Below, piece after piece: positions 5,793 to 50,626 of a DNA stretch of 64,000 nt. The position numbers and the translations under genes were made by a program. Source of the stretch: Clytia hemisphaerica (taxonomy: Eukaryota; Cnidaria; Hydrozoa; Leptothecata; Clytiidae). The stretch covers positions 1 through 64,000 of the forward strand of contig CACVBU010001042.1 in assembly GCA_902728285.1 (NCBI GenBank), given 5' to 3'. Positions within the stretch are counted from its first letter, which is position 1. The number at the start of each line of letters is the position of its first letter. The notes below the pieces were generated by a model that was not told where the DNA came from, did no database searches, and saw only the letters and a program-made list of their open reading frames with translations.

Positions 5793-5811
5793 TGCGTCTT
5801 GCAAAAGGTTA

Positions 5812-9459: not shown

Positions 9460-9468
9460 GGCTCTGCG

Positions 9469-9746: not shown

Positions 9747-9779
9747 CACTACAAACCTGAAAAATAATTAAAATCTAAT

Positions 9780-11580
9780 TAAATTTAATTAGATTTTAAA
9801 TATCATTTTGACAGACAAGACATTTAAATTAATTCGATTTTGCATTTAGGTTAAAAATCAAATAGGTCTAAGTAATGAAATTAATAAAATATTTATTATG
9901 ATTCTAATCATCTTTAATTACCTAAATATTAATTGAAAAATAATAAAATTAATAAGGTTTGTTAACCAGATAATATACAGCATAATTGTTTTATTTTGAG
10001 GTGAGAAAGTTATTTAAAATTTTCTTGATTAGCTCAATGCCTATTGAAACGAAATTAATTAAACTGAAGGATGATTTATCAATAATATCCAATTCACAAT
10101 TTTACACTTTAAAAATAGAAAATAATGTGTAGATTATTAAGACTTTGATTGTGTAAAAACAAAAATACAACCAAATTTAAATTATTTCATCAATGACAAT
10201 AATTCAATTCTTGTATGAAAACAACCAAAATTGTTGAAAAAAAATGCAAGCAATGGATCGATAGTATCAATATGTTAATCCAATGATTTTAATAATGTAT
10301 ACTGAGCAAAACAATGGACTTATCTAATCCAAATTTATTACCTTTTTGCTGACATTTTAAATCAATTATGTATGCGGTTTATTATTCTTAGGCCAGATTA
10401 AAAAGAAGGAATCCAAAATTAATGATAGTATCTAATCATATAAAATCAAAAACATCTTCAATTATTACGAGAGGCATGCAAAATTAATTGTCATTTTCGG
10501 CAATTAATTATAATAAATGTCATAATTAAGTAGTCCCAGAATGGAAAATAAATATTTTCCTCTCTACTTTTATTTTACTTTCAGGTTGAATTTAAAGGAA
10601 TAAAATGTTGTCAAGAAGAAAGACAGAAAATACGTTTAAATGGTTTGTAGATAACTGATTATATTACAAAGACAAACTAATTATCCATTTTCTTTCCCGA
10701 AATAAATTGTGAAAAAAGGGGAAATTAAATTCACATCTCAATTGCAATTAAATTATATTTCAAATGAAATGAAATTGTATTTCAATTGTAATTAAACAGT
10801 TTCTATATTGAAATCAATATTGACTGTGATTAGAAATATAAAGAAATGAGAATAAATTAATCAGAAATTCTGTTTCAAATAAAATTGATTTTTTGACAAA
10901 TATATAAAAATATACTATTTATAAATAAATAATAGTTTCACTGGAATGTTATTATCATATTGTAAACAAGCATTTTCTATGTTGGAATTAAATGTTATGA
11001 TTATAAATATAAAGCTAAGAAATGAGAACAAATATATTAGAAATTTCGTTTCAAATTAATTAGGTTCTTTCATTGAAAACAAATACATAAATATTTTCCA
11101 ATTATAACTTATTTTGTAATTAATTGGAAATTCCACTTCAAATTAATTTGGTTAATTTGTAATTAACTAAAAATTTCACTTTAAATTAATTTGGTTATTT
11201 GACATATTTATATATATAAATATTTTCTAATTGTAACTAAATTTGTAATTAATTAGAAATGTCGCTTCAAATTAATTTGGTTATTTGACAAATTTTATAT
11301 AAATATTTTCTAATTGTAACTAAATTTGTAATTAATTAGAAATGTCGCTTCAAATTAATTTGGTTATTTGACAAATTTTATATAAATATTTTCTAATTGT
11401 AACTAAATTTGTAATTAATTAGAAATGTCGCTTCAAATTAATTTCAGAATTTGGTTATTTGACAAATTTTATATAAATATTTTCTAATTGTAACTAAATT
11501 TGTAATTAATTAGAAATGTCGCTTCAAATTAATTTGGTTATTTGACAAATTTATATAGATATTTTCCAATTGTAGCTTTA
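9780..11580. repeat. Left subterminal AT-rich repeat field
   Basis: About 1.8 kb of very AT-rich DNA built from AATTAAAT, TAATTAG and ATTAATT words. From about 11100 to 11560 it becomes a tandem array of roughly 84-bp units containing GTCGCTTCAAATTAATT (four good copies from 11261, one with a short insertion near 11443) and weaker units before. No coding. Its position next to the CACTA terminus suggests a subterminal transposase-binding region. Confidence 0.75.
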
Positions 11581-11597
11581 ATTTGTGGTTTTAATTA

Positions 11598-12180
11598 GGG
11601 GACCCGTCCATATTCATTTGACAACGCAAAACGTCAAATTGACGTTATCCTCTGAACCCCCCCCCACCCCCCACAGATAACGTCAAGCGATGTACTGATG
11701 TATACCAAAAGTTGTAGCCATTTTTCGTCAAAGTTTTCCCGTTCTGTCGCAAAGTCCGACTTGGTTGTACCCGTGCGTGTATGTGTTCTTTTCACTAATG
11801 ACCTTTATTTAAAAAGAAATTAAAAGCTGCACTTGGAGCTAGGTCCGTGCCGTGCTTTAGGCAGGCGTACCACCTTCTTTGCCCACTTGTGCGATGTGGT
11901 TCACTCGATCGCGCAAACAATAAAAATGTGATGTAATGATATCATAGCGCGAACCAATGGGATTATGCGAGCAGCAAATTTTCATGTACTTCATACACAA
12001 ATATGTTTTCGAAAGCTTATAAAGTATAGTGTGGTTGGTGGTTACAAATATCTGCGATTTTCACAAAAAGGTATACCTTTGATTTCTTATAACGTCAAAC
12101 CTAACTTTTGAAAACCCCCCCACCCCCTCATAACGTCAATTTGACGTTTTGCGTTGTCAAATGAATATGGACGGCTCCCC
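11598..12180. mobile_element. PIF/Harbinger-like MITE, TTA duplication
   Basis: The ends are GGGGACCCGTCCATATTCAT and its near-complement (…GGACGGCTCCCC), with TIRs of about 50 bp extending through CAACGCAAAACGTCAAATTG. TTA flanks it at 11595-11597 and 12181-12183. A TTA/TWA duplication and TIRs beginning GGG fit PIF/Harbinger. It is 583 bp, without an open frame, and inserted in the subterminal repeats of the larger element. Confidence 0.8.
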
Positions 12181-12370
12181 TTAGGCCTAATTCTACCTGC
12201 TTCATATTAATTTGGTTATTTGACAAATTCATATAAATATATTATTGATAAATAAATAAAATAAATAAAACCAGCCTCTTTTCCATAATGGAATTTAAAA
12301 TTATTAGAAATATAAAGCAAAGAATGGCCTATTTGTTTCATTTACCTGTTTACTGCTTACTATAAAATGC

Positions 12371-12645
12371 GGGAGAGGATAATTACAAGGTCTCAAAAGA
12401 AGGTTGTCTATTGCTCATTCCGACATCGACTTATAACCTGACTGAAATTCGAGCCGTTACTAGCAACCCTGCGGGGCCCAAGGCGCCGAGTATGCACCCG
12501 GCACAGTGACAAGCCGTTACTAGCAACCCTGACCCTACCTAACTGTTAGTTAATCAATTCCAAACAACAAAACCCCCGGAAAATTTAAAATGTCGGAATG
12601 AGCAATAGACAACCTTCTTTTGAGACCTTGTAATTATCCTTTTCC
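12371..12645. mobile_element. 275-bp element, 9-bp TSD, GC-rich core
   Basis: The termini GGGAGAGGATAATTACAAGG and the complement of CCTTGTAATTATCCTTTTCC pair over ~57 bp. ATAAAATGC flanks both sides (12362-12370, 12646-12654). A GC-rich 109-bp core (12435-12543) holds two copies of GCCGTTACTAGCAACCCTG and recurs inverted at 34882-34990 inside a different element. Confidence 0.85.
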
Positions 12646-12654
12646 ATAAAATGC

Positions 12655-13152: not shown

Positions 13153-16100
13153 TCAATCTGTTTCGAGTTTCTTTGCCTTCCTCTTTCTTGTTGCTCCTTC
13201 AGGAACAACTAATTCTTGGTATATATTTACAGGTGGCTGATAGGTGTAGGCATAGCCAGGTTTTTGTTTTGTGATGGTAGACGTGGATGGTTTGGATGGC
13301 GGAGTGGTTGGCAATTTTGGAGTAGATGACAAATCTTAAATTCAAAATGATATTTCTCAGTCAAAAAATTAAAAATCAGTAGGACCTCTTAGTACGAAGT
13401 ATTTATATATAAATAGATAGAAGAGGGTCCCCAGATAGAAATCGAAAAGTTTTTCAAAAACATTTTCTTTGCAATTAAATTTATTTTTTTGTTTATTCTT
13501 GCTGATAGATGTTTCCTTTCCTGTAATCCTTAATTAAAATTACCCGGCTGAAATCCAAAAAAGGAACCAAAAAATCTCAAAAAATCTGAGAAGATCTTAA
13601 AAAGATTGTTCAATCTTGTTCACTTATATATAAGTGATATAAATGACCCCTCTTTCTTGATATTTACAAAATATTTAATTTCACACTTTTGATACATACA
13701 TATGACAGGAATAAACAGAGACAGACTAAAATTGAGACCAGTGTGATACTAACCTTTCTCGGGTTCTTTGGTAGCCTCCATAAACTTGGGTATTAATATG
13801 TTCGGGTCATATTTGGCTTTTGGTCTCTTTTCAGCAGCTAAAATAAATGTAAAGTTAAATAGTTGTTTTGGAGAACACAACCAGTCCGTGGAATAACAAA
13901 TACTCCCGCCATTACATACAAACCGATAAATTATCTTATACCCATGTAACCAGCTGTGTTGAAAAAGAATTAATCATTTATGACGTTATCATCAAAACAA
14001 TTTCTGCTGAAGTAATTAGCTATTCAAAAAATTCTTTGCATTCTCCCAAACAACTATTTTTGGCTCACTCAATAATCTTACTAAAAGTTAAAACAAGTGC
14101 AAAAGATGTTCGATTACCAACCAAAACCAACCAAAAATTGAAAACTCTCCTGCCCAAGAATAAAATTCTCATAGAAGTTAGGAAGTTTTTTAGGATTAAA
14201 ACCAGGGGCCATCTTACAATATTAATTTTTTAATTTATCCTTACTTGTTTTTCTAGTTTCTTCTTTTTCTTTTTCTTTATCAGCCTTTTCTCCATCGCCT
14301 TTAAAAAAGATCGTAAAGAATATAGATCTATTGCTAATTAGAATGTAATGTTGAATAACTGTAGCATTAAAAAAATGACACATTAATGTTTAATTATTTT
14401 AAGTGTGCATTATTTTTTTCTTATCATTATTTTGATTCCGGAGTTTTTAGTTATTCAATATGACATCCTAAATATAGGAAAATAGGTCTGTTGTGATTTG
14501 AAAATCCAAAATTTTAAACATTTGTTGCTCAAGTAGCCCTTTAGATGATTTGACACTATATATGTTCGATAGCTCAATGATTCAAGCAATAATTTGACTT
14601 AATTCCTTTATAACATTCATACTTACTTGATTTGACCCTTTTCATTTGAGGCCTAGCATTCTCATTTTTTGCCGCTGCTTTCTTTGCCTTTATCTTCTCT
14701 TTACGCTTCTGATTCTCTTGCTCTTCCATCTCAATTTTCTTGCTTAGCAGCTTAATTTTGGGTCTCTCTTTGTTGTTGTCTGTAGTAGTGTCGTTGTGTA
14801 GTTGTTTCTTTTTGGAGGGTCTGAAAAAAATTGTTGAATTTATATTTAAAAAAGTAACCCGATTTATAATAAATGAAATAAAAAAGCTCTTTTGGTCAAC
14901 ACAAAAATTATCACCACTATGCAGGCTACCATCCTGAAAGATTTATTCACATCTGCACTGTTTGCAAAAAAAATGCTGTTTAACAATCGGTTTAGTTTAT
15001 ATTTTGTCACTGTTTACCTATTATTCAACTTCAACGGACTAGTGTTGGTCTTTGATATGTAGAAAATGTCGCCATTCTAAACAAAAATTTTAATTTTAAT
15101 CTTACATCAATCTTGAAATTTGAAAATTTGCATTGTTTACCGGTTACTTTTTAAAAGAGGGTCACATGTATGTTGTTAAGTAATAATTATATGATAAAAT
15201 GATTCTGAAAAATCAAAACGAAACCTGAATTGCAAAAGGGTACATTTTCAAAACAAAAAAAAATTTGTTGAAAATCATTTTTTGAGTAACTTAATTTAAG
15301 GAAGGATTATATTTTGCGTATTTATATTTTTGAGTCCAAAGATGTTGAAAATTTTTGTTGGGATTAAATTTTCACAAATTTTTGAAAAACTTTTAAACAT
15401 AATCCTGATGTAAAAAAATCAACTAAGAAAACATATTTGATTTTCAAAAACATACCTCTAATAACGCAAGTTTTTCCTTCTTGGTAATTCCTGGTTGGTC
15501 TTGGTAATTATTTTTTGGTAGCACCAAAGTGTGTTTACGGGACACATGTTTTAACAAGCATAGTTTGTAAAGATTTTCTGTAGAAAAGAATTCAAAAGTT
15601 GTTGTTATAAATTTTATGCATAGAAAATTTTTTTGAAGGTTTGTTTTTTACTTTGATATCGGGAGTATTCAAAAAGTACATTCGTCCAAATTTTCAGACC
15701 CCCATCTTGTTTGTCAGCGTTTTGAGTACACCCCCCCCCCATTTTTACCTCAAATTCCCCCCAGATATATCAAAAAAAGGGGATTTGAGCAAATCCAAAT
15801 TGAAATAATAACACAAGTTTTGGGAATAAGAAAGCTCATAAGCAGATAGACTTGACTTACCATCTTTGACATCTTCTAAAATGACTGCCTCCGCTAAGCG
15901 TTGTCCTTTTGAAAATGTTCTATGAACGCACCACACATGTGAGCTGAAATATAAGTGGATTTGCTTGAGGAATGTTTTGTGTATAAAAATTTTTTGTGAT
16001 TTTTTATGCCCAATTTAGTGAATCGTGAAATTTAGTACACGCAAAAATTTCCACCCTAGTAAAATTTTGCGAATCGCAACCTGGAAAATATAATACCAGT

Positions 16101-19100
16101 AAGGTAATTCAAAATTTTGTATCAAGAAGTTCACTTACCCAGGTTTCATGTTGAAATCAGGTGGCATTTGTTGTACTATTGTCTTTGGATCCTCCATGAT
16201 CAATTCTTTCTTTGCTTCACTCACGCTCTAAATTTAAAAGGTCATGATAAAGCATTTGTAATTTGGTAAGAAATATCTTTTAAACTACCTTAGAGGAATT
16301 AATATTACAGAACAAAGGAGATCAGATTGTAGAAAGATGTAAATGGGAACTACTTACATGAAGGTACCCTCTATGGCCAGTCAAGATCTTTCTAATTTTC
16401 GACTTCAACATGGTCAATGATTTACTGCCATCTGTTGAAGTTACAGCTTCTTTGAATAGCTGAAATTTAACATTTTGGTTCAAATATTAGTCAATAGAAT
16501 TTTTTTTTTATATCAAGGGGGACTAAATTATATATCCTTATTGGATTTGTTGTCGTATATGGATTGTTTTTATGATTCTTGTGAATTTTGGCCATTCAAA
16601 AAAATAGATCAGAAAAATCATTAGTAAGTGCCAAAACCAGTTGCTAAAACGCAATAAAGAAAATGGAAAAAATCAAATGAAACGCTATTTCACATTAATT
16701 AATTTCGCAAAATCCCTAAAATGGGACTGCTGGCATTAACTCATTCTGCAAAACATAAACATCTTTTGGGGTCGTTCGCATTAATTAATTCTGCATTAAT
16801 TTATTCTTGCATTAATTTATTCCCTTAAAGTAATGCTACTTACGGAAGTCTGATGGAAATCTCTGATTTCAACATCATTCCAGTCCGACATTTTGATTCC
16901 TTCTCTGTAAATCCTTCCATTGCCAAGGCTTTGCACTACTGTTCGAATGGTATGCTAAAATAAAAAATAAAAGTGTAACTTACCTTACAACAAAATATGT
17001 ATTTAATTCAATTCAATTTATTGATGTTTTTATATCATCAAGTCTAATGAAAATTAGACTCGGTTTTCAAAAGTATCAAGACTTTTTTGATCTCTTAAAC
17101 TAAATGACTCAATGGCATAATGGATTGTACTAACTGCTTGACCCTCCCTGAAATATGCAATATGATATTCACTTACTCTTTCTAAATTTTCTTCCTCAGT
17201 TTTACTGGTACCCTTTGGTCTCCCACGTTTTGGTTTTGCAATTTTTACTAAATAGAAAAAAAATCAATCAAATACAATCTAGAAAATTGTTTCCTTTGAA
17301 AAATCCATATCAATTCAAAAAGCTTTTAGGGATTATTTGAGGTAATTTGTAAAAAACAGAATTTTCCAAACAGAAAGTTTAATTTAGTGTAAATCCAGGT
17401 AAATCGGTTCCAAAAAGGAAGACTTTAAATTGACAAAAAATCAGCAGTAGGATTTTACCTTCTTTGACAATTGGTGTGAGTCCTGTCGAAGCCTGAGTGC
17501 TTGCTGCTATAAGTAAATAATACATTCTTAAGTTAACCATACTGATTCTAATAACTTGAAAATCATTGAAAACTTATATAAACACAATGCTACTGCATGC
17601 TAAGGACCGCTTGAGCTTTCTGCCTTAAAAAATATTTTAATTACCTTTGACCTTAGGTGATAAAATGTTGAAATACATTTGTAGTAAAAAAACTAAGCAT
17701 AATATTCCTACCTTCCTTTATAGGGGACATGTTGCTTTCGGTTAACGATTCTTCCAAATCGTGATTTGGCTCTTCTTCTTCTAAGAGATAAATTTAGACA
17801 TTATGTAAATTGCAGTAAGTATCATCTTCTATTTTATAACTCCGGACTCCAATGAACATATAAAGATCAATATGACAGTGTTTATTCATTTGTGAACTGA
17901 TCAAAAGAGATCATTATCTTGTATTGATGAGCTTCTATTCTATTTCACCAGTTAATGTCAAATAATATGAATATGATATAAACTTATGGTCTACCCATAC
18001 TCAACATCTAGTTCTAGTTTTATATTTGCATAAGACAAAAAATCTCCTTACCATCATTTTCAGTACGATACTCTCCATCACTGCTCAGCTCATCTGTATG
18101 TAGAAAAAAAAATTGCTTTATTGTAACATTTTCAGGGGTGACTTTCAATATTACTGTATTGGTTTTATAGGCTGTCAAGCAAAATCGGCGTTAACAGCTC
18201 CAGATGTAAAATGATGTATCTGGTTCACTTATTCAACGTAAGTTAAGTCCTATTGTTTATGATGTTTGGAAAATTTAATTAATAGAACTAGAAATTAAAA
18301 AAACATTCGATCCTCAAAGCCTGAGTTCTAGATGAGTAAAGATAGTTTAGATAGTTAAAACATGACTTACGTCGAAATACATGGTCATCATTAACTTTCA
18401 AAAACTCTACATCATCTTCAAACACCAAATCTGTTAAATTGTCTGAAAAAAAATGATTTAAATGATATTATAAAAAATATGAAACAAAAATATTAAGGCT
18501 GGTTTTGATTTTTTACCCAACCCCTATCAACTTGTTTACATATTTCAATTTCTTTAACAATTAAATTGTATTTAAATTTTCTTAAAATTTTCAGTGCAAG
18601 TATCGTTACCTTTTGGGTTTGCCTTTTGATGGTTTCCAGGTGTCGTCACTTAAAAAGTAGGTTTAATGTTTTTTTTTAATTATAAGGTGTGAGCTTTCAT
18701 TTAAGATTTTAAATACAAAATCTTTAAATTTCCTTATCATAATCCGAATAGTTCGGTTGTTTAGATTTTAATATTCAGTGTAAAGTATGTTTATTTGCTG
18801 TTGTATATAAATCTTTAATCAAAAAGTGCTCTTGGAGTGTCTAATACATAAATAGATTTTTTCAAAATTTAATAAGTTGGTTGATCCTAACAAGGTCAGA
18901 GGGGATGAGTAAAATGTACAAAGATTAACAGATTATTAGACACTCAAAAGTAAACATTTATCATACCTCTTGAAAAGTAACTTTTAAATTTTTTGTAAAT
19001 TGCATCGGCCTTCATACAAACAATCTGGTTTGATCTGAAGTATCTTAACTGAAGATTAAATTTTCAATTGTAATAAAATCACAGCCGCAAAATACTAACT

Positions 19101-20493
19101 CATAGCCGGGGTTGGTGTTTAGTTTTGAATCTCAAAAATGTTAGGACCCAGCATTACATTTGGGAAGAGGAGGGTATATCACTCATAGTACCTTGTACTG
19201 AATTTTGGTATCTGGTAGGAAAAATAGGTAAATGGGTAAAAAATTTACCATAAGGCGAAAAAAAAAAAAAAAGTAGTGTTCCCAAAAACCGACCGGGTGA
19301 AAAAGTAACCCGGCTGCAGATTTCTTATCAGGCTTATACAGAAAACATTAAAGTGACGTGATTTTATTAGTTGTAGACACGTGTGTTCAAACTGACCTTT
19401 CTCAATAATTGTACTACATCGCTGTGCTTCATGATTTTATGAGCACTCCATTCAGTTTGTTCCAGTTCATGCAGACAAGATAGCAATTTTGGAATATTCT
19501 GAAATCAATTTTAAAATTTCAATTTTTTATAGGATCAAGATAACTCCAAGTATGAAAGAATGAAGATTTTAATGGCAAGATGGCGTTTTAAGATGTTGGT
19601 TTTAACATGTTGGTTTTGGCTGTGATATAAAATCTCTCTAATACTCACATGTTTGTGTAGCGTCAAAGAACACTTCATTTCCTTGAATATTTCCGTCGGG
19701 CATATGATCGCTTTTGTTTCTTAAAGTGAATTACATAGAAGTAGTCTGTTTCAATATTTTGTGGTAAGAATAAGTTATGATAATAAAATAAATTCAGTCC
19801 ATTTGTAATGAGATTTGTTTTAGATTTTGGCTTTATATTTTGGCTTTTCTAAGTCCGCCATATTTGTTTACAAATTCTATCACGCTTTTGTATGAGGTCA
19901 TAATGCGCGCTGATTGGTTAATTCTTCGTACGTCTACAAATTATCCAATCAGTGTGTTTGTTTACAAATTGATCACGATTTTGAATAGTTGTCATGATGC
20001 TTGTTGATTGGTCTTTTTTTATTTACGAGTTCGGATTAGCCAATCAGCTTTAACCTAACTTGTTATTCGAACGGGCATTCCGTATTACGGATCGATTTTT
20101 TTATTGTTCATTTAATTACAAAATGCACTGAAATTAAATACTTTTTGACTTAATATTAATTATTGTTTTACTTTTAAATTAAATAGTATGCTAAGGTAGG
20201 GTTTTTTCTAAGTTTAATTACAACTTTAATTACATCTCTACTTTTCCATTATGCTACAGGAAAGTGCATAGGTGTCGAAACATTTTCTTAATATCCAAAT
20301 GAACCTTAATCACAATGAAGAGAGAAAGAGAGAAAACTTCTTCCAGCGCTAGATAATTGAGATATCAATTTTGATTATAATTTTTTTCTACTTTAAAATA
20401 CAGACATAAAGATTCTTTCTAGACAAAAAAGGTTTTATTTCTAAACTTTAGCTTGGAATGCTCCTTACCGTTTGATTCTTGAAAAGCAGCCAT
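13153..20493 (-). CDS. IBD-like/AT-hook nuclear protein, 19 exons
   Basis: The spliced protein is about 520 residues. Exons: 20493-20469, 19719-19649, 19498-19397, 19048-18967, 18648-18610, 18442-18371, 18093-18052, 17780-17712, 17506-17459, 17247-17177, 16954-16844, 16459-16358, 16227-16139, 15943-15861, a small one near 15499-15456, 14820-14627, 14298-14245, 13837-13754 and 13334-13153. Phases agree everywhere except around the small exon. The start ATG has a good context (CAAGATGG) and GTAAGG follows 25 nt later. Residues ~18-93 align with the LEDGF/HRP2 integrase-binding domain (EMKCSL, CLHELE, LLRKLRYFR, IYKKFKSYF against EIKNSL, ALDELA, LKKIRRFK, LYNKFKNMF). Then come an acidic stretch, the AT-hook KPKRGRPKGT (~190), two unassigned conserved-looking blocks, a Lys-rich coiled region and a basic tail. 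Unlike LEDGF there is no N-terminal PWWP and the IBD comes first. A TFIIS/IWS1-type TND domain is the alternative reading of the same fold. Confidence 0.85.
13868..14233 (+). other. Chance open frame inside an intron
   Basis: A 121-codon open frame on the + strand lies in the intron between the 13754-13837 and 14245-14298 exons of the minus-strand gene. It has AT-driven composition and no motif. It is mentioned only because it is the longest frame in this part; I do not regard it as a gene. Confidence 0.15.
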
Positions 20494-20639
20494 CTTGTTG
20501 AAAGGTAGTATGTACTTTGAAAAAAATCCAAAAAGTAAACTGAAAGAACTGTTGATTTTTGACTGTCCTGGTCTCGTTTGAAAATCGAACTTCTTGTCAC
20601 TTTTGATCGAACCTTCAAAAAATAATCATTATTCTTCCT

Positions 20640-21290
20640 TACCATATAAGGTTAATCGGACGGACAGAAAGGAAAACCTTGCATTGCATTTATAATAACT
20701 AAAATTAAATAGCTAAAATATTGAAATTAAATAGCTTTTAAGAGTGAAATTTATTTTTTTATCATTGTCAATTTTTTTCACCATATAAGGAAATCGGAAC
20801 AAAAAACTAGTCCTTCATTCCCAGTCCTTTCATTCCCAATCCTTTTGAAGCCATTGCATTTATGAGTTGTATCAATAATAAAAGTTAAAATTAAATAGCT
20901 AAAATATTGAAATTAAATAGCTTTTAAGAGTGAAATTTATTTTTTCATCATTGTCAATTTTTTCACCATATAAGGAAATCGGACAAAAGAACTAGTCCTT
21001 TCATTCCCAGTCCTTTTGAAGCCATTGCATTTATGAGTTGTATCAATAATAAAAGTTAAAATTAAATAGCTAAAATATTGAAATTAAATAGCTTTTAAGA
21101 GTGAAATTTATTTTTTCATCATTGTCAATTTTTTCACCATATAAGGAAATCGGCAAAACGAGTCCTTCATTCCAGTCCTTTGAGCCATTGCATTATATGA
21201 GTTTGTATCAATAATAAAAGTTAAAATTAAATAGCTAAAATATTGAAATTAAATAGCTTTTAAGTGTAAAAATTTATTTTTTTTAACGTT
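20640..21290. repeat. Tandem repeats between the two divergent genes
   Basis: About 3.5 units of 140-185 bp, each starting near CACCATATAAGGAAATCGG and containing two copies of AAATTAAATAGC plus AGAGTGAAATTTATTTTTT. The array begins ~150 bp upstream of the IBD-gene start codon and ends ~2.2 kb before the visible transposase. AATTAAATAG words also occur at the right CACTA end (about 33215 and 33255), so a shared binding word is possible. Confidence 0.8.
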
Positions 21291-21800
21291 GTAATTATTC
21301 TTTCTATTTTAAATTATTTTTCTTTTTTGATTAATCATTATTTTAGCATATTTATATAGAAAATTAAAACAAATTAAATATGTGCATTTTAAATAGATTT
21401 CATTGTCAAATAATTTGACTTGTATTGCAATAGTTTGAAAAGATTAATAAAGTGATAAACAAAAGTGCTTCATTTCAATTTGTGGAAGGCAGCGGTCAGA
21501 AGGGTTGTGGGAGACGTCTTCTCTCTGCATATTACAACTACTACATTACCGTTTTTCGTTTACTTGAGAGTTTACTTATTGAGTTGGTTATTATGTTTCT
21601 ATTACTGTTCATTCGGTTATGCATTCTTTCATTTCATCGTATGATCTTCTAATTTTATATTTTACTTTTTACAACCACATTGGATTTTTTTTTCACAGCG
21701 GGAGGGGTCAGTTGTTTCTGAGGACAGTAGAATGGGATCATTTTCATGAAAAAGATGAAAGAAAGAAAATCCTGCATTGTGTAATTTTCATTCATTAAGC
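21291..21800. other. Non-coding AT-rich spacer
   Basis: No exon was recognised. The 66-codon frame near 21452-21652 is hydrophobic by composition and has no splice or promoter context. Confidence 0.4.
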
Positions 21801-21804
21801 CATA

Positions 21805-21885
21805 TTCCGCGTCACCTGCCTCGGCCCGAACCACCGACTATCTAGCTGTGAAGCTGCAGCCTCATCCACTAGACTACCGCGTCTG
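21805..21885 (-). repeat. tRNA-derived SINE head (Glu-like)
   Basis: Read on the minus strand, TAGTCTAGTGGATGAGGC resembles an A box and GGTTCGGGCC (21832-21823) a B box. A TTCAC loop like that of tRNA-Glu lies between them. The acceptor stem does not pair, so this is a pol III-derived repeat rather than a working tRNA gene. Confidence 0.6.
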
Positions 21886-22353
21886 GAGATATTGCTAGCT
21901 ATTAAAAAGTTAATTTTTGATATTCATGACGTCATGAATACGAAAAAACAAGTTCTGTATAACAGATTACGTCATGAATATCAAGAATTGTAATCAAGCG
22001 ATCCATAAATTTGGCGATCAGAATTTTGATTGATTCTTGCAGAATGGTTACGTAATCTGCCCAAAAATGTGGTGCGCGCGAGAATACCACAAGTAGTTAA
22101 TTCTCCTGAAAATAGACTCATGGAAGGCGCTGTGTCAGAAATCAAAACTTAAAAGCCGTTATGATAAGATTTCAAAATGATCTAACAAATATTTCATTTT
22201 TCAAAAGTTTCTTATTGTTAGATCTACAGTATTAATAAGTAATTTATAATTTTTACTTCCTTTGATTTTAAAGAACTTTGTACTCAAAAACGTTATCACC
22301 GCGCTGGGAATGGGGGCTCGTCCCGGGGGCTCGTCAAGAAATTCTCTCAAATT

Positions 22354-23295
22354 NNNNNNNNNNNNNNNNNNNNNNNNNNNNNNNNNNNNNNNNNNNNNNN
22401 NNNNNNNNNNNNNNNNNNNNNNNNNNNNNNNNNNNNNNNNNNNNNNNNNNNNNNNNNNNNNNNNNNNNNNNNNNNNNNNNNNNNNNNNNNNNNNNNNNNN
22501 NNNNNNNNNNNNNNNNNNNNNNNNNNNNNNNNNNNNNNNNNNNNNNNNNNNNNNNNNNNNNNNNNNNNNNNNNNNNNNNNNNNNNNNNNNNNNNNNNNNN
22601 NNNNNNNNNNNNNNNNNNNNNNNNNNNNNNNNNNNNNNNNNNNNNNNNNNNNNNNNNNNNNNNNNNNNNNNNNNNNNNNNNNNNNNNNNNNNNNNNNNNN
22701 NNNNNNNNNNNNNNNNNNNNNNNNNNNNNNNNNNNNNNNNNNNNNNNNNNNNNNNNNNNNNNNNNNNNNNNNNNNNNNNNNNNNNNNNNNNNNNNNNNNN
22801 NNNNNNNNNNNNNNNNNNNNNNNNNNNNNNNNNNNNNNNNNNNNNNNNNNNNNNNNNNNNNNNNNNNNNNNNNNNNNNNNNNNNNNNNNNNNNNNNNNNN
22901 NNNNNNNNNNNNNNNNNNNNNNNNNNNNNNNNNNNNNNNNNNNNNNNNNNNNNNNNNNNNNNNNNNNNNNNNNNNNNNNNNNNNNNNNNNNNNNNNNNNN
23001 NNNNNNNNNNNNNNNNNNNNNNNNNNNNNNNNNNNNNNNNNNNNNNNNNNNNNNNNNNNNNNNNNNNNNNNNNNNNNNNNNNNNNNNNNNNNNNNNNNNN
23101 NNNNNNNNNNNNNNNNNNNNNNNNNNNNNNNNNNNNNNNNNNNNNNNNNNNNNNNNNNNNNNNNNNNNNNNNNNNNNNNNNNNNNNNNNNNNNNNNNNNN
23201 NNNNNNNNNNNNNNNNNNNNNNNNNNNNNNNNNNNNNNNNNNNNNNNNNNNNNNNNNNNNNNNNNNNNNNNNNNNNNNNNNNNNNNNNNNNNNNN
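22354..23295. other. Assembly gap (942 N)
   Basis: This is a run of Ns. The 5' exon(s) of the transposase are expected here, because the first visible exon (23490) starts in phase 1 and needs an upstream exon. The long open frames spanning the gap are artefacts of translating N. Confidence 0.98.
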
Positions 23296-23423
23296 GCATC
23301 AGGTACCACCACCAGATTCAGGAGGCTATGAAGATGATAACCCCATTCTTATCAACAATCGAATCTCATCATTGGATAAAACATTAGAAAAATTTCTTCA
23401 ATTTCTATTACTTCCATAATTTA
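23296..23423 (+). repeat. Mosaic of three transposase segments next to the gap
   Basis: The sequence is a join of pieces found downstream: ~26 bp equal to 23495-23517, ~51 bp equal to 23691-23741, and ~53 bp equal to 27338-27390. The joins fall within exon A and within an intron, not at splice sites, with 1-2 bp of shared sequence. It is either an internally deleted derivative element or a local mis-assembly at the gap edge. Confidence 0.75.
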
Positions 23424-23489
23424 ATGACTTTTGAGAGCCTCGCATTTAATTTAATACATAAGAAGTTGACTAGTTTATTCTATATAGGT

Positions 23490-26400
23490 GCGCATCAGGT
23501 ACCACCACCAGATTCAGAACTGTCCAAGAATGTTCACGAAAATTTACCATCGTCATTACTTGAGCTCCTGGCGAATGATTTATATTGGTTTGCAACGACT
23601 CCGAATATAAGCAAAAATGCTCTTGGAAAACAGCTTCAGATGAAAAAAAAGATCTTTCCGGAGGGTAATTCATATCCCAAATGCTTTAAGGAGGCTATGA
23701 AGATGATAACCCCATTCTTATCAACAATCGAATCTCATCATGTTTGCGTGAAAGATTGTATTTGGTATTTTGGTAAATACGAGAATTGTCAAAAATGTCC
23801 TGTATGCAACGAGCCTCGCTACACTCCATCTGGGAATCCACGTCGCGTATTTTACTATATGCCTCTTAAAGACAGACTTGTTCGAATATTCTCCGATGCA
23901 AAGCTTTCAAAACTTGTTCAAGATCATGCTAATATTATGTGAGTAGTATTCATCAATTTTCAAAATCATGCAAATAATTGTTCGTTGATGTTTGTTTTAG
24001 TTAGTGAATTGTTGAGGGGTGCCACCTTTCTCAGAGAGGGTGTCTTTATTGAAAAATCTCACTTTGCAAGTATATTATACATTTAGATGTTATTACAATT
24101 TGGTCAATTTTTACCCTTAGAATTTAGAAAAAGATTTCCCTTGTGATGGAAAAGTGTATAAACCTTGCAAACCTATTGTTTCTCTACAAATTAGGGAGAA
24201 GTCGGTTGTTTCTGATGTACACGAAAGTAGATCCTGGAATGACGCAAGAAGATCTCCACGAACGATCCAGTTGATCATGAACACTGACGGCCTAAACCCA
24301 TTCAGTATGAAATCTAAGTATTCGATGTGGCCGATTATTTTTGCCATTGAAAATTTACCACGTACGCTACGATCTAGAAGAGAAAATCTTTTACTGACAG
24401 GTAGGAATTAAAAAAATTCAATTATTAAACTTGACTAATTATAACTCTTATGATTAAAAATTTAATAATTATCGCTGTTGTTATATAAGTCCCCCCAAAT
24501 AGAACTCAAAAGTTTGCTTTCACGGGATGTATTAAACAAAAAGCTCGACCATGACATTCACTTATTTTCGGTTTTAGGTATTATCCCTTCAAGCTCAATG
24601 GGTAAAGAAACTCCAAACATCCGTCCCTTCCTGAAGATAATGATTAAAGATATAGAAAGTACCAATGGGATGCTAACCTACGATGCTTTCAGGTATAACA
24701 GAAGCCAAGTATGTCGTTTCATATATAAAAAACTGTTCTGGTCGTAAATTGGATCCGTTTATTATCTTTATATTCTAATATTATTTTTTTGGACCTCTCA
24801 AACCGTTGATTGTACAGGATGTCTTATTTTTATGATTACTAAGTTTTCTGAATATATAACATCATCTTTGTTTTAATAGAGGAGATTGGTTTAAGCTTGA
24901 AGTCAACATACGTCGATTCATTTTGGACTATCCGGGAATCAATAAAATTTTCAACTTGTCTGGTTCTGGAGCCTATTCAGCGTGTATATGGTGTGATGTT
25001 ACAGGTATTTGTTTGTTTTGAAAAACAAGAGCTGCAAAAATGCGGATACATATTTCCTCTATCGCAACCTAAACTCTGAAAAAGCTTCAAAGCTGATATA
25101 GTATTTATTTCCGTACCGAACTAGAATAGCCCTAGATTATGTATGTAGTTCTAGAAATTGTCTTATTTTGATATTTTTTGTTGATATTCGCATTCAAGTT
25201 TTTCAGAGATTCACGAAAATTTGATAATACAATAATAATACAATTAATAATAAAATCAATAATACACTTGTTTTAGGCACTCGTGTGGAATCTTCCAAGA
25301 AAATTGTCTATTTGTTTAGAAGGTTCTTACCGAAAGACCATCCTTTAAGAACCGATCCTGGTACGGAACATTATTTCTTTTTATTCAGATATTCTTTCTG
25401 TAAAAGTTACAAATTCTCGAATTGATTTTAGATTGGCGTTGTGCTCTTTTCATTCATAACTCATTATTTTCGAAATGAAAAACATTACTGATATCATTAT
25501 TCATCACATTTTACCCGGGATGAATTGAAATAATTTCAGATTTTAAAGATACTTGTGTTGGGGAAGAGAACATGCACCCAGGTTATTACACCAAAGATGA
25601 CTACAAAAAGTTCAAAGACGCGTACGTTAAGTGTAAAACAGTGCAAGAAAAACAGATGCTTCTACGTAGCACTGGTTTCCATGGTGGTTGTGAATTTGAT
25701 AGTTTAAAAGTAGGGAATTCAAAATTAATTCTTTTATTAGAAATTCTGGCCCTTCAAATTTGAAATTGTGTTGTGTAACAAATGATTAACAGGAAACAAA
25801 TCCACAAGTTAGTACATTCACATCTGGTTTACAAATTCCCTTTAAAAATATAATGTATCTCTACTTAGGATTTTGATATGATCAAGCAGGTTACACCCGA
25901 TCCTATGCATACCATCACTAATGTCATTAAACACGTTGTTAAATTTCTTGGTAACCGTCACACTGGAACATTAGAAAAGTTTTTAACTGATGATGCTGAA
26001 CATAAAAGTAAGTAAACCGATTTTTTTGGGTATTTTTTCTTCGTTTTGACTAATTTTTCATCAAATTTGATTTTCATCATGTATGAGTTCCGAACAAAGA
26101 GGATAAAAACTTCATAATGCCGAGATTCTGAAGGAAAAATTCATGGATTTCCGATACCGAAACAATTTAGCATTCCGAAAAAAAAAAAAAACGAAGAAAT
26201 TTTGCCCGATTTCCGAAATTCCGAAGATAAAAAAGGGTCGATTTCCGCAATTCCGAAATGCCGAACGCCCCCACTACCATTATATTCATTAGATTTACAC
26301 GATGACGCCATTTATCAACTAAGTAAAGAGGAAATGAAAATCGCCGATGGTAAAATATACAGAGCCGTGGTAAGTGTTAATTATTGTTACTGTATATAGA

Positions 26401-27633
26401 AATCCAAATCCAATGGCAACATTTTCATAAAAAATGGGAATTACATTTATAGATTTCTATTTTGTTTGTAGAAAAAACAAAAATTGAAAATGAGAGTTTA
26501 CTCAATATTTGAAAAGGAAAACCCGATCCTCAAATCGCATGACTGGCTACAGGTAAATTTAAATTCTTATTCTTATTCCAAGAATTGAAATTAAAGTTGG
26601 GTCATTACAGTAAAATTTCACGAAAAAGACTTAACCTAACATGTAATATATTCTTATCCACAGCTTGTGAAACAAAATATAATTCAAGAAGCTATCGAGG
26701 GTTTCTTATCTCCAAGACAAGCAAATACATTGTCAAAGTTGCTTAATGCCCTTAACAGTTTAATGGCTGAAACAGTTGACGTTAGGAGAGTAGATGATAT
26801 CCAAAATGAGGTTACCGAGGCTTTGGCTTACATGGAGCGAGATTTTCCGTTATCGTTACTGGTACGTAAAAAATTTTCCATTAACATTAAGAATATCTTT
26901 AAGAGACTAACAGTCATTTAAGGAAATTACAACGAAAGTATGTATTTTTAGCCCATCAAACTGCGTCCATGTTGTTAATCTTTTTGGAAAAACTAATGCC
27001 AATTTCTAAAGCACCCCTGCCTGCCATACATCCATTCCACCAATAGAATTTCTATTGTTCTCAGGTTAAAAAATATAGTGAGATGGTCTCAAATGCAATT
27101 TTTTTCTATTAAATTTTACCTTTGATTTATTTAAATTTTTCAATTATTGTAGGTTGTTTCATTTCATTTGCTACTCCATATCGCTGAAGGATTGATAGAT
27201 GGCCCAATCCATACAAAGTGGATGTTCTATTTTGAAAGGTTTAATTCGTACATTAAACGAAGGGTGATGAGCAGGTCAAACCCAGAAGCTTGCGTGATGA
27301 AGACCTACAGAGTAAGTACTTTTTTGGATAAAACATTGGATAAAACATTAGAAAAATTTCTTCAATTTCTATTACTTCCATAATTTAATGCCCTTAGCAA
27401 AGAGGGCGTACGGGTTGGTCGGTATTAGGTCTATTTTTGATCGGTATTCGGTATTTCTATGAAAAAGCGGTGTATTCGGTATCTCTGCACTCCCGTACTC
27501 CCCCACTAGAAACCCCCTCAGAGTAAAGTTACCATATTTATTTTTAATCTTTATTTAGATCAACGATTGGGTATCTTACCTCAAAACCACTGGCCATTTG
27601 CAAATTTTGTTTGATGAAAATGATGAATTGTAG
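23490..27633 (+). CDS. EnSpm/CACTA (Tnp2/Transposase_21-type) transposase, 5' incomplete
   Basis: Spliced exons: 23490-23938, 24121-24401, 24578-24692, 24880-25004, 25277-25360, 25540-25709, 25869-26007, 26293-26369, 26472-26552, 26664-26861, 27153-27311 and 27559-27633 (stop TAG). All phases from the second exon on agree. Motifs in order: CPVCNEPRY with FYYMPLKDRL (the zinc-like CPxC…RYFPL block of Tnp2); TDGLNPF followed by SMWPIIFAIENLP, giving a probable catalytic Asp; LSGSGAYSACIWC; TPDPMHTITNVIKHVV, a second acidic motif; then a DUF4218-like end with LLHIAEGLIDGPIHTKWMF and YFERFNSYIKRR. These belong to the cut-and-paste transposase of CACTA elements. Exon 1 ends in phase 2 while exon 2 reads from phase 0, so one small exon or a one-base change is unaccounted for. 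AATAAA follows at 27656. Otherwise the gene looks intact. Confidence 0.88.
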
Positions 27634-27655
27634 AACTTTTTTGCTTTATTTATGT

Positions 27656-27661
27656 AATAAA
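27656..27661 (+). promoter_or_regulatory. Polyadenylation signal of the transposase
   Basis: AATAAA lies 23 bp after the stop codon and is followed by more AATAAAAG words. Confidence 0.5.
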
Positions 27662-28635
27662 AGTTAATAAAAGTTATAATAATAAAAGTTATTGAAATTT
27701 GAAATAAATTCTCGTACTGAAATGCCGCATGCACTCAAAAAGCTACAAAATAAAGCAACCTGTTTAGCAAAAATTCTCACTGCAAAAGCTTTTTGACCGA
27801 AAAAAAATAAAAATGTCTCTCAAAAGCAAAGCATGAGGAATCATTTTATCATCTTCATTTATAATGCTTGAATTTTCCTTATTTTCCTTAATAAAATAAA
27901 TACTAAGGCAATACTTCCTTCACTTCGCTTTCAGTTACGCTTCTTCATTACTGTTCGATCTAAAAATAAATAAAAAAGATTATCTTATTTCAGTTCAACC
28001 TTCAACCTCCTCCCGTGACGTTTTGGTTTCGTCAATAAAAAAGTCGGAATCAGGGGCCTAGCCTGGGGTACGAGGTTGTTATCAGTATTGAGATTATTTA
28101 ACTAAAGAAATTGGTCATTTTAATTTTCAACAATTGAGTCATTTTGCCCTACCCTATCCTGCTCAGTGGCTAATTATTTGGATATTCCAGGATATTTGGA
28201 AAGGTGCCGCCTAAGTTAGAATTAGTTACACAATTCAGTTTTCATTCAACCAAATAGACAAAAAATTACCGAATAATTTTAGTGTTTGATTTGCTCCCTT
28301 GTGTTTGCTCCAAACTTAAGTCGAGCAACCACGCTGCTGCAGTGAAATGCAGCAATAGATAACATTCTTGAATATATAGCTTTTTGTCGAAAATTCCTAC
28401 CAGTTAATTGACCACATAAAAATCAACGCACGTCACCTAAAAATGAACGCCCCTCCTAAAATACAACAAGATTCGCACAAATGCGACTAAATATTTCCCC
28501 CTTACACTTGCAGATGGACTCATTGAGTTTCAATCTCCAACCTTTCTCAGGCAAGAAAAAGTGAAGCCTTAAAAATGCGCCGTACTTCAGTAACTTTCGA
28601 ATTATTTATTATTTAATGCTTATAATTTTCAAGTT
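27662..28635. other. Non-coding, fragment of an 8-bp-TSD MITE end
   Basis: No gene was seen. At 28524-28570, CATTGAGTTTCAATCTCC and AAAAAGTGAAGCC match the left end of the MITE at 31441-31731, so a truncated relative is probable. Confidence 0.4.
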
Positions 28636-28802
28636 CAAGAAAGGAAAACAAAATTGGAGTTATGGAGCCAAAAAAGGGGAACATTCGATATATGGAGGTT
28701 TTTTTATATGAGTTTATTAGGAGATTTTCATGCTGCCAACGAATTTGTTCGAGTTAAGGAGACGTTCGAGTAATAGAGGTTCGAGTTATGGAGACTCTAC
28801 TG
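28636..28802. mobile_element. Right end of a Tigger/pogo-like element
   Basis: Repeated GTTCGAGTTATGGAG-type phrases end in GAGACTCTACTG followed by TA at 28803. These are the style of terminal sequence and the TA target of pogo/Tigger elements. The matching left end was not found nearby, so it is a fragment. Confidence 0.55.
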
Positions 28803-29379
28803 TATTTAAAAAAGTAAGCTCATCTCCAGGATAAGATGATAAAAACTTCGGGCATTACGATACGCTTATAAAAAAGTGTAGGCTAAAAAAATAGAAAAAA
28901 GGGCTCGGTACTGAAAGGGTTAACAGCATACACTCTTTTTTTATAAGAACAATCAGGCTTAGACTGAAACAATAGGTCTATTATTCTAGACAATAGAAAA
29001 AATAAGAACAAGCTTAGGCTTAACTCAAATTTCATGGAAAGAGCGTAACGAGGGTTCATAACAAGAAAATGTCAAAGTGAGGAACGTTGCATATTATTGT
29101 AGTCATGTGTTTTAAAAATTACACTGAATGTAAACCTCAGATTAAGCACAAAATGTATATTAATATTTATATATATGTATATAATGTATATTAAAAAATG
29201 TATAACAAAAGAACAGTAAAGCTAAGTTTGTTAAAAATCAATGAAACCAGCACAAATGGGATAGGCCAAATCAGCAGTTTTTATTGGAATCATAAAGGCA
29301 AAGGTCAAACAATTGCATTGTGACCGTTTTGTTATTTTTTTGGCAATGACTTCTTTAAGAAGAGATGCTTTATTCTATC

Positions 29380-29665
29380 GACCTCTTTGTCAAGAATATA
29401 TGTCAACCTGAAATATCGGACAATAGTTTTTCTATCGACTTCTTTTATTTGTCGAGAATGTAAATGAATCTGCTCAAGCAGACAAGGTTTATATTTTTGC
29501 CGTGTACGAAATATCGGACAATAGTTTTTCTATCGACTTCTTTGTCGAGAGTGTAAATAATCAATCTGCTCAACAAGCAGTCAAGGTCTGTTTTATCGAC
29601 CTCTTTGTCGAGAATGTAAATCAATCTGCTCAAGCAGACAAGGTTTATATTTTTGCCGCGTACCT
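29380..29665. repeat. Tandem repeats with TATCGAC…TTTGTCGAGAATGTAAAT units
   Basis: Three to four degenerate copies of a ~95-bp unit (ATATCGGACAATAGTTTTTC, TTTGTCGAGAATGTAAAT, CTGCTCAAGCAGACAAGG). Both strands stay partly open through the array, which explains the overlapping frames there. No protein family is recognised. Confidence 0.7.
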
Positions 29666-30008
29666 CTTTAGTGATCAAGCACTGTTGTTTACTCACACTG
29701 TTGGTGATCAATGCTTCCTTAATCACCAGCACACTGTATGGCACTTTTAGGAGAAAAAAAAAAAAAAAGAAAAAGAATATTGCATCCAAAAATTTCAAAA
29801 ATCCTTAGGAAAAAGATCCCTGAAAGTCACTTTTAAAGCTGTCTGACCGAGTTGACAACCAAAACAGTCCAGAACATGCACCACATGGTGAGTTAAATTT
29901 CCTCAATAAAAATCGCACATTGATTAATCCTGACTAAAGGTTTTACACTATAGACAAGAGTTCCGCCTCACTGCACAAATCGATCGGGAGAGGCGTGGGC
30001 GTTATTAA

Positions 30009-31320
30009 AGGGGCAATCCGCCACCACATAACACGGTTTGTTATTATTTTTCTAAAACTCGATTACTTTTAGGGTGCATAGGGGAATTTCCAGTTGAGCG
30101 GAGTGATCGAGATAAAAATATCACGTGACTTTTGACAGGACAAAAAATCAAAACAAACTGGTGGAAGGCACAAAAAATTATCTTCCTTTCTCAGAAAAAA
30201 GCTATCATTTTGTTTCAGCTGAAGGTAACCTGATAACAGCTGTTCATAATTTTCTTACGTGCACGGTAAACCTCTGAAGGCATTTGAAAATTATACATCT
30301 GAGGAAAATAGTCCTCCCGCGGCGCGGAAAATTTCACAACAAGAATCTTGTTGTGCGCCAGAAAGATAAAAACTGATACGGCGCCCTATTCATAAACACA
30401 ATCACGCAACTTTGTTGTCATCCCCAGTCCTTAGACGAACGCAGTCCTTACGATTTTGAGATTGCATTTTCGTCAGATCGTATTATGTTTTCACCCAGTG
30501 GGTTCGACTGACAATTCCTGCATTAAAAGCCAAGATGCAATATGTTTATTAAATACACGCTCACAGTATCTCTAGTCAGAGAAAACAATCACACATTCAA
30601 AAGTGTCTTTAGTCAGGAAAACAACCAAAACACGTACCAAAACAATCACACAAGTTTCAAAAGTTTAGAAAATCCACAAAACCTCTGACCTCATGAATGT
30701 AAGAACCAAGAATTAAAGACTTTGTTTTGAGGTCACACGGTAAACAAATCTCATATAACTTGTTCCAGAGACATTGGTCATTGTCCATATAAGAGTTTGT
30801 ATTTCAAAGCAAAAGTATTTCTCGTACTGCCCATTTTTCTCATCAATTCTTCAACTTGAACCAGTTTCACATCTCAATAGAATGTTAATACCATTTTACC
30901 AATCATTTAATGTCCAAAGTTATGGGTGTAGCGTTTTCTTCGTGTCAAGCAAATGTCTCTGAAATCTTTAAGTTGGTTGGTTTGGTATTCGGAAGAGGTA
31001 ATCCATGGATATCTTTGTAATCAATGATGAAAAACTCTTGAAATTACTGATGATTACAGTTGAAGTGTTAGCCTCACATTTCATGTAATTATTGGTCGCC
31101 AATTAGATGAAAATTGTATGTTTTTTGTTCGTCAGAAAAGAGTTTAAAAAGCCAAGAGTGAATTTTCGTCCATCTTCTATTTTGATCTGAATTATTCGTG
31201 TCTTGATTACTCAAAAACATGCGCGTAACATCAAGGTAAATCCGTGCGATTTTGTCTGAATAACTAAGGCAAATGAAAACAAAAACAAACTTCGCAATGT
31301 GGTGGCGGATTGCCGCCCCT
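30009..31320. mobile_element. 1.3-kb TTAA-flanked element (piggyBac-like target)
   Basis: The inverted ends are AGGGGCAATCCGCCACCACA and its complement GTGGTGGCGGATTGCC…CCCCT. TTAA precedes (30005-30008) and follows (31321-31324). A TTAA target suggests piggyBac mobilisation, although the termini are not the usual CCC type. There is no coding sequence. Later short repeats lie outside it. Confidence 0.75.
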
Positions 31321-31440
31321 TTAAGGGCGCAAAAAGGGCGTAAGTAGCCAAGGATCGGAGAAATGCCTTTTTAACTAATATTTCCCCTTATAGCGGGGAA
31401 ATATTCAATAAACGCCCGGGGCGAATGTGAAAGACCAATT

Positions 31441-31731
31441 CATTGAGTTTAAAGCCCGAAGGGCTAGAGTAGAAGACAAAAAGAAAAAGTGAAGCCACTT
31501 AATTTCCTATCCAGAACGCCCCCAGAACACGCTGCGCTCATGACAACAGATTGGATCTAATGGTTTCTTTGTTTTTGAGTACTATATTTTTCGAAATCTA
31601 GCGATAGATTTTACTTTCAGTCCGGCATTTGTGTGAAAACCACGCGCGGACGTTCTGGATGGAAAATTAAGTGGCTTCATTTCCCATCGAAAAGACTCTA
31701 CTCTAGCTCCTTCGGGGCTTTAAACTCAATG
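31441..31731. mobile_element. hAT-like MITE with 8-bp TSD
   Basis: The ends CATTGAGTTTAAAGCCCGAA and …CTTTAAACTCAATG pair over ~85 bp, with GAAGCCACTTAATTT and TTCTGGAT further inside. GACCAATT flanks it at 31433-31440 and 31732-31739. Size, 8-bp duplication and CA…TG ends fit a hAT-type MITE. Confidence 0.82.
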
Positions 31732-31789
31732 GACCAATTCATCAATTACGCAAAACGAAAAGGTTGGTACTTTGATTCGTAAATTCGAA

Positions 31790-33300
31790 GAAAAATTTGT
31801 ATTCTAGGGTTTAGATTAATTAATAATTCAACTTGATTTTTAAAAAGAATCTAAAATTTCCAGCATTACTTTGTTTTTTCCTTTACACTTTGCATTGATA
31901 TATTTTAAATTTTATCAGGGTTACGATATGGAATTTAAATATTGTGAAACATTGTAAACAAATCTATATCAAGGTTTTATTTTAATTGTATTAACACCAC
32001 TACATTATATCAAATTTGGAAGTATTTCAAGCAACAAATCACTGTTAAAATAAAATGAAGAGGTGGAAATCTAAACCAAAAACATCAAGCTTCCCATAAT
32101 TGAATTATCAGATTATATAGTTGTCGGGCGTGTAATTTAATAGTTTTTGACTTCAAATTAATAAGCTTTTTCTTCCACAATAATACCCGAGATTAAATAA
32201 ATAGTACCTTTCCATAACTGAATTATACAGTTAAATTTACACTCATAATTTATTAGCTTTTGAATCCTAAATTAAAAAGCTTTTCATCTCTCAAAATATA
32301 TTACAATATAATGCAAGATTAATAATGGAATTAAACTGAAAATAATCATCTTTCAATGATTAAGTTATATAGTTATCAGACATGTAATTTAATAGTTTTT
32401 GAATCCTAAATTAAAAAGCTTTTCATCTCTCAAAATATATTACAATATAATGCAAGATTAATAATGGAATTAAACTGAAAATAATCATCTTTCAATGATT
32501 AAATTATATAGTTATCAGACACGTAATTTAATAGTTTTTGAATCTTAAATAATCATCTTTCCACTATTAAATTATATAGTTATCAGACACGTAATTTAAT
32601 AGTTTTTGAATCCTAAATTAAAAAGCTTTTCAACTCTCAAAATATATTACAATATAAAGCAAAATTAATAATGAAATTAAACTGAAAATAATCATCTTTC
32701 CATTATTAAATTATATAGTTATCAGACACGTAATTTAATAGTTTTTGAATCCTAAATTAAAAAGCTTTTCATCTCTCAAAATATATTTACAATATAAGGC
32801 AAAATTAATAATGAAATTAAACTGAAAATATTCATCTTTCAATGATTAAATTATATAGTTATCAGACACGTAATTTAATAGTTTTTGAATCCTAAATTAA
32901 AAAGCTTTTCATCTCTCAAAATATATTACAATATAAGGCAACATTAATAATGAAATTAAACTGAAAATATTCATCTTTCAATGATTAAATTATATAGTTA
33001 TCAGACACGTAATTTAATTGTTTTTTAATCCTAAATTAAGAAGCTTTTCATTTTTCAAAATTGCATCTGATTTTAATAGTGAAAAATCTCGATTTTAATA
33101 TTGACATATTTCTACTTTTCTTTTTTTCACAAAGTTAAATTTTCTCCAATTTTTTTAACATCAAGATTATATAAGGTTTAAAAAAATTAATAACGTTTTT
33201 CGTTTAGGTAAAAAATTAAATAGTTACCTATTTAATTTGTCTTTGAAATTAATTAGAAATTAAATAGATTTTAATTACTTAATTAAATTTAATTAGATTT
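31790..33300. repeat. Right subterminal AT-rich tandem repeats
   Basis: From about 32110 to 33050 there are six to seven units of ~139 bp (one truncated to ~69 bp) containing GTTATCAGACACGTAATTTA and TTTTTGAATCCTAAATTAAA. Beyond them AATTAAATAG words continue to the CACTA terminus. It is the mirror partner of the left repeat field, though the unit sequences differ. Confidence 0.8.
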
Positions 33301-33324
33301 TAATTATTTTTCAGGTTTGTAGTG

Positions 33325-50625: not shown

Positions 50626-50626
50626 T

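Follow-up and report, generated by a model that had tools for sequence, protein, structure and literature searches.

A CACTA/EnSpm-type element of Clytia hemisphaerica with a Tnp2-type transposase gene and a divergent gene for an integrase-binding-domain/AT-hook protein under purifying selection

A 64,000-nucleotide stretch of the genome of the hydrozoan Clytia hemisphaerica (contig CACVBU010001042.1, positions 1 to 64,000 of the forward strand; hereafter the window, listed as C720 among the contigs below) carries, between inverted repeats at 9747 and 33324, a gene for a Tnp2-type transposase and, on the opposite strand, a gene for a protein with a LEDGF-type integrase-binding domain (IBD) and an AT-hook. 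The locus raises the question of whether this second gene is a captured host gene or the second protein of the element itself, two options that an earlier note on this DNA had placed side by side. We find that positions 9747-33324 are one mobile unit of CACTA/EnSpm type, and that the second option is favoured by the presence of the gene, whole or in part, in three other copies and by purifying selection. We lean towards the view that the unit is an animal CACTA/EnSpm element, autonomous and equipped with a TNPA-like accessory protein of its own. The superfamily is known; what is apparently undescribed is the unusual second gene, which belongs to the mobile unit and has been under selection.

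The unit measures 23,578 bp, nested insertions and a 942-N assembly gap included. It is bounded by perfect terminal inverted repeats of 45 bp (CACTACAAACCTGAAAAATAATTAAAATCTAATTAAATTTAATTA), which start at 9747 and end at 33324 (left, 9747-9791, plus strand; right, 33280-33324, minus strand) and bear out the identical inverted ends of about 44 bp reported in the earlier note. In both full-length copies, that of the window and one on contig C904 described below, the 45-bp perfect repeats open with CACTAC, the terminal repeat beginning CACTACAAACC; the longer inverted arms of the window element reach 66 nt with 88% complementarity. Inside both ends lie the AT-rich repeat fields that the note had also seen, with an A+T content of 79% at left and right alike, and with tandem arrays that differ between the two sides, namely an 83-bp unit on the left (11154-11586, 5.1 copies) and a 139-bp unit on the right (32246-33061). 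The element combines several of the features by which CACTA/EnSpm (CMC) elements are recognized: terminal inverted repeats opening with CACTA or CAC, repeat-rich subterminal regions (here the 83-bp and 139-bp arrays), and a transposase of Tnp2 type (PF02992) in which DDE, C(2)C and H(3-4)H are all represented.

The transposase gene on the plus strand, likewise recognized in the note, occupies 23488-27633, with 13 visible exons that encode 659 amino acids and every splice phase closing. Its product matches Transposase_21 (PF02992) in Pfam with E=1.2e-26 and DUF4218 with E=9.8e-14. The motifs TDG, DYPG, CIWC, HLLLH and FERF follow one another in this order, and the exact positions of the catalytic D and E are presumably among them. 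C(2)C and H(3-4)H are a mark of CACTA/EnSpm transposases (PMC12730594). A search of 5.8 billion proteins with the transposase gave 21 matches at E<=0.001, with 27-35% identity at the protein level only. Exons 1 and 2 fall within the 942-N gap of the window (22354-23295) and are readable in the C904 copy, where exon 1 encodes a cysteine-containing start, MYYCGCNICKG..., and exon 2 contains a (GACCAC)n run that is translated into a His-Asp repeat followed by an acidic tail. The gap in the window assembly may be due to this (GACCAC)n run. As measured in C904, the start codons of the transposase gene and the IBD gene are 1,700 bp apart and divergent. In the window, the left part of the divergent intergenic region (20494-22353), a candidate bidirectional promoter, includes a 171-bp tandem array at 20700-21282.

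The IBD/AT-hook gene (13153-20493, minus strand) is, as first supposed, apparently intact: its 19 exons are open from ATG to TGA, encode 553 amino acids, and close in all splice phases, the splice sites having been picked by eye and the sites and phases then verified by script. Exons 1-7 lie at 20493-20469, 19719-19649, 19498-19397, 19048-18967, 18442-18371, 18093-18052 and 17780-17712; exons 8-14 at 17506-17459, 17247-17177, 16954-16844, 16459-16358, 16227-16139, 15943-15861 and 15577-15456; and exons 15-19 at 15076-15018, 14820-14627, 14298-14245, 13837-13754 and 13334-13153. Exons 2-4 (18967-19719) encode the integrase-binding domain, residues 18-95, which matches the Pfam LEDGF family (PF11467) with E=3.1e-10 and 40.2 bits against a cut-off of 26.3; structures of the PSIP1 IBD match the protein as well, with a best E of 2.9e-7. 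Exon 9 (17177-17247) encodes the AT-hook (KPKRGRPKGTSK), whose single core, KRGRPK at residue 177, is of a kind found in 17 of 20,000 shuffles of the 553-residue protein. The domain identity proposed in the note is therefore upheld.

Of 5.8 billion proteins, the 8,000 candidates with the most words in common with the IBD protein were scored, and two matched at E<=1, one from Clytia and one of PWWP-LEDGF type (E=0.61). For residues 185-385 the same Clytia hemisphaerica protein was the sole match at E<=10. This best homologue is uncharacterized and shares 81-87% identity over the parts encoded by exons 13 and 16-18. In its database entry (C753:509906-526094), exons of the element gene are joined to a PHD-finger region, itself a weak Pfam match; the entry is probably a mis-joined gene model on C753.

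Searching the 417-Mb assembly with the 104-bp left end returned 25 matches at 13 places, counting both ends of the window element and of the C904 copy. The latter (C904:803049-826877; 23,829 bp, zero Ns) carries both genes, together with what lies between them, inside the same 45-bp ends. Outside the tandem arrays it agrees with the window at 96-99% identity in its main blocks, and within the arrays at about 91-94%. The note had asked whether other copies with the same end carry the IBD gene, and the sole other full-length copy found does. Left-side fragments with parts of the IBD gene are found at C882:583648-588832 and C408:901675-903972; these two seemingly represent one insertion on two contigs, because they have 17 bp of flank in common and further upstream blocks that are 95-97% identical. 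The IBD gene, whole or partial, is accordingly present in all three other copies read that extend more than 2 kb from the left end (C904, C882 and C408). At C547 and C694 a related left end is accompanied by no other element-like sequence in the 10.5 and 6 kb read.

Exons of the IBD protein match at least nine loci: C720 (the window), C904, C882 twice, C408, C753, C926, C797 and C456, with two additional single-exon matches elsewhere on C926. This count is a lower bound, since the best 78 of 114 candidates were scored. The loci read in DNA were C904, the C882 fragment, C408 and C456, together with small stretches near C753 and the second C882 locus. C456 contains an IBD-gene fragment, with neither ends nor transposase in the 30 kb read. 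C753 keeps the region upstream of the IBD gene, but a further 3.4 kb read beyond it lack a transposase. At the second, diverged C882 locus, IBD-gene exons at C882:397623-401575 are preceded 3 kb upstream (the 3 kb between not being read) by transposase exon-2 sequence in divergent orientation at C882:394124-394600; the three longest blocks of this sequence show 88-94% identity, after which it stops. The divergent gene pair therefore predates the split between the window and C904 copies, because this diverged locus shows the same layout.

Comparison of the window and C904 copies indicates that the IBD gene has been kept by purifying selection, because the changes between them are mainly synonymous. 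Specifically, across 541 codons of its exons 19 changes are synonymous and 10 nonsynonymous, which corresponds to a ratio of nonsynonymous to synonymous divergence (dN/dS) of 0.13 (p=1.6e-7 against the neutral share), and the only exon indels are of +3 and +9, the insertion in exon 12 of C904 aside. When the C882 fragment is added as a third sequence, 14 changes can be assigned to the window branch and 9 to the C904 branch, which leaves 6 without assignment. That fragment shows 34 synonymous and 38 nonsynonymous changes in 323 codons, but its own reading frame is disrupted by single-base deletions and a stop.

The sequences show the ends, the two genes, another full-length copy, a third copy with the divergent layout, and purifying selection on the IBD gene; DNA binding by the IBD protein, its partner and its role in transposition are inferred. 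In the model that we propose, two divergent genes whose starts are about 1.7 kb apart would provide a Tnp2-type DDE transposase and an accessory protein. Through its AT-hook and basic C-terminal region, the accessory protein would attach to the A/T-rich subterminal arrays; its LEDGF-type IBD would grip a short motif in a partner, for which the transposase is the simplest candidate, although this choice is a guess. Both ends would be brought together and the transposase kept there, which is the job of TNPA in plant CACTA elements. The narrower version of the model, in which a built-in LEDGF-like tether fills the TNPA role, the element's own IBD binding its own transposase and the AT-hook binding the A/T-rich ends or chromatin, is a tentative one that we consider possible but short of probable.

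Several observations weigh against an autonomous element with its own TNPA-like protein. No motif common to both ends rises above chance (k-mers of 8-11 in both orientations, with 100 second-order Markov simulations for each k), the 83-bp and 139-bp arrays included. F-x-G-F is the motif bound by the IBD, and the transposase contains no strict match to it, only an acidic stretch ending in DDDDIFFEN; in the N-terminal part, which was scanned too, the number of His-Asp repeats is possibly wrong, and the motif result is unaffected by this. Only one further full-length copy was found, and its IBD gene is broken at exon 12 by a C904-specific insert of 4.19 kb (copy positions 5681-9873). Several copies are gene-less: the right-side fragments on C273, C928 and C674 consist of no more than the terminal end or the last part of the transposase side, C168:88631-89887 has both ends and neither gene, and C367:601161-601462 has one complete and one incomplete end. 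The C168 and C367 copies have the appearance of short, non-autonomous derivatives belonging to related families, and neither is full-length, so that the full-length copies lacking the IBD gene which the note had looked to as counter-evidence did not appear. The transposase differs between the window and C904 by 4 synonymous and 4 nonsynonymous changes in 652 codons (p=0.06), which is only suggestive of purifying selection over this interval. Additionally, site differences between the two copies number 29 of 1,663 in the IBD exons and 62 of 6,715 in the surrounding non-coding sequence, and synonymous sites in the IBD exons have diverged by 5.8%, some six times the non-coding value of 0.9% (p=3e-9). 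This excess, of which the transposase gene shows no counterpart over non-coding sequence (p=0.56), may stem from exchange with a third copy.

A role directed at the host competes most closely with end binding. A chromatin tether for target choice, or an anti-silencing function, fits nearly as well as the end-binding model: the IBD protein would still be element-owned and selected, and purifying selection is predicted equally, but its task would be to tether the transposase or the element to a certain kind of chromatin, and so affect target choice in the way that LEDGF does for HIV, or to counter silencing. In line with this, LEDGF tethers its partners through the IBD and attaches to chromatin through its PWWP domain, with AT-hook-like motifs adding DNA binding (PMC10854676), and a captured TET/JBP gene in fungal EnSpm elements is thought to aid escape from methylation (PMC12730594). 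The Pfam scan of the 553-residue protein returned no PWWP or other chromatin-reading domain. We regard a host-directed role as rather unlikely. Still less probable, in our judgement, is that the element took up a host gene and carries it along as a passenger that has no role for it. IBDs occur in host proteins, and 19 exons make the gene as intron-rich as host genes are; however, the transposase gene is intron-rich too, with 13 visible exons and 2 more seen in C904, and an N-terminal IBD without a PWWP domain is not the LEDGF/HDGF layout. Furthermore, a passenger is at odds with purifying selection between copies and with the presence of the gene in the second full-length copy and in diverged loci, one of them with the same divergent layout. 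The note had also raised the case of two separate short insertions around an old host gene, with which an unrelated transposase would lie between the like ends. Short copies whose ends are related do occur, as at C168:88631-89887, but the C904 copy, which has the same ends, both genes and the intervening sequence at another place, rules this arrangement out and leaves it a vanishingly small probability.

An accessory protein of TNPA type has precedents in the superfamily. In maize, TNPA recognizes the subterminal repeats of Spm, and transposition requires both TNPA and TNPD, the latter being the transposase (PMC2613891); TNPD and TNPA interact (PMC1636069), and the second protein is not alike from one CACTA element to the next (PMC2613891). 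Like the Clytia element, plant CACTA elements (Spm/En, Tgmt*) encode a transposase and a second protein and have repeat-rich subterminal regions, and Tgmt* is of about 20 kb (PMC2613891). They differ in that a single transcription unit yields TNPA and TNPD (PMC1636069) whereas the Clytia element has two divergent genes, and in that TNPA binds short subterminal motifs whereas the second protein here has an IBD and the ends yielded no common motif. The TNPA/TNP1 family is absent from the Pfam matches of the IBD protein at E up to 5, a direct comparison not having been made. Among animal TRC elements, SmTRC1 resembles the Clytia element in its Transposase_21 transposase, inverted ends and intron-containing unit. 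It differs in producing its smaller proteins, which have no detectable relatives, by alternative splicing of one unit, and its authors propose one of these, SmTRC-PrA, for the TNPA role (PMC1636069), in contrast to the separate divergent IBD/AT-hook gene of Clytia. With LEDGF/p75 (PSIP1) and HRP-2, the protein shares an IBD of the same family (PF11467) and an AT-hook, whereas the N-terminal PWWP domain of LEDGF/HDGF proteins is missing from its Pfam scan, its middle has no known relatives beyond the one Clytia protein, and the order is reversed: LEDGF has AT-hook-like motifs N-terminal to the IBD (PMC10854676), while here the IBD at 18-95 precedes the AT-hook at 177. Fungal EnSpm elements with TET/JBP are also CACTA-type elements with an added regulatory gene (PMC12730594), although the gene, the kingdom and the proposed role are all different.

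Human LEDGF keeps HIV integrase on chromosomes through its IBD. If an element-owned accessory protein is the correct reading, a DNA transposon would have recruited this domain, the host handle of HIV integrase, for its own ends; on the narrower tether version, integrase-cofactor tethering, known as a host service that HIV hijacks, would be built into an animal cut-and-paste element. Plant CACTA elements need an end-binding second protein, and for animals the accessible literature offers only the SmTRC1 proposal, for which its authors call for experiments (PMC1636069); in the accessible literature we found no animal protein tested for the TNPA role, and no description of a CACTA element with a LEDGF/IBD or AT-hook second gene, subscription journals and Repbase reports being outside this scope. 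The IBD gene offers a concrete, intact and selected candidate for the TNPA role. Because the IBD has a known structure and binding mode, holding short motifs of partner proteins (IBD-binding motifs, IBM; PMC7835958), the candidate is directly testable.

The earlier note had further claimed a 2-bp AT/AT target duplication. The flanks are as it described, ...GGCTAT on the left and ATACGG... on the right, so that AT at 9745-9746 and AT at 33325-33326 are possible halves of such a duplication, but a match of this length alone is a 1-in-16 event. The corresponding dinucleotides are TG/AT at C904 and TA/CA at C168, and a 2-bp duplication is thus seen at one of the three copies with both CACTAC ends intact (window, C904 and C168) and is unproven for the window element. 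Short target duplications at only some copies are also a feature of SmTRC1, in which 2-bp repeats flank 7 of 14 copies (PMC1636069). No empty site came to light in the search with the left flank of the window element, whose matches were dominated by the repeat at 9247-9461. This part of the flank belongs to a very young repeat family, which among the best 40 of 1,573 candidates recurs at 39 other places with 99-100% identity.

In addition to the features named in the note, the window element contains the 942-N gap between the genes and three nested insertions, all missing from the C904 copy. Their boundaries are approximate: one with 52-nt inverted ends at about 11599-12190, one with 56-nt inverted ends at about 12370-12648, and one of 2.9 kb at about 28467-31399. 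By subtraction, the element proper would be nearer 19-20 kb. Within the 4.19-kb insert of C904, an open frame of 870 residues resembles reverse transcriptase, as judged by eye; it is described as long. At the right edge of the gap, positions 23296-23430 form a short mosaic, also recognized by eye, that repeats pieces of transposase exon 3 (near 23493 and 23691) and of the intron near 27325; this may be an assembly artefact or a piece of an internally deleted copy. Outside the element, frames named by eye are an integrase-like open frame together with two copies of a reverse-transcriptase-like open frame (57956-58747 and 38302-39858), and a helicase-like frame at 49239-49529, which lies beside a (CGTT)122 microsatellite at 50142-50626 that is open in several frames.

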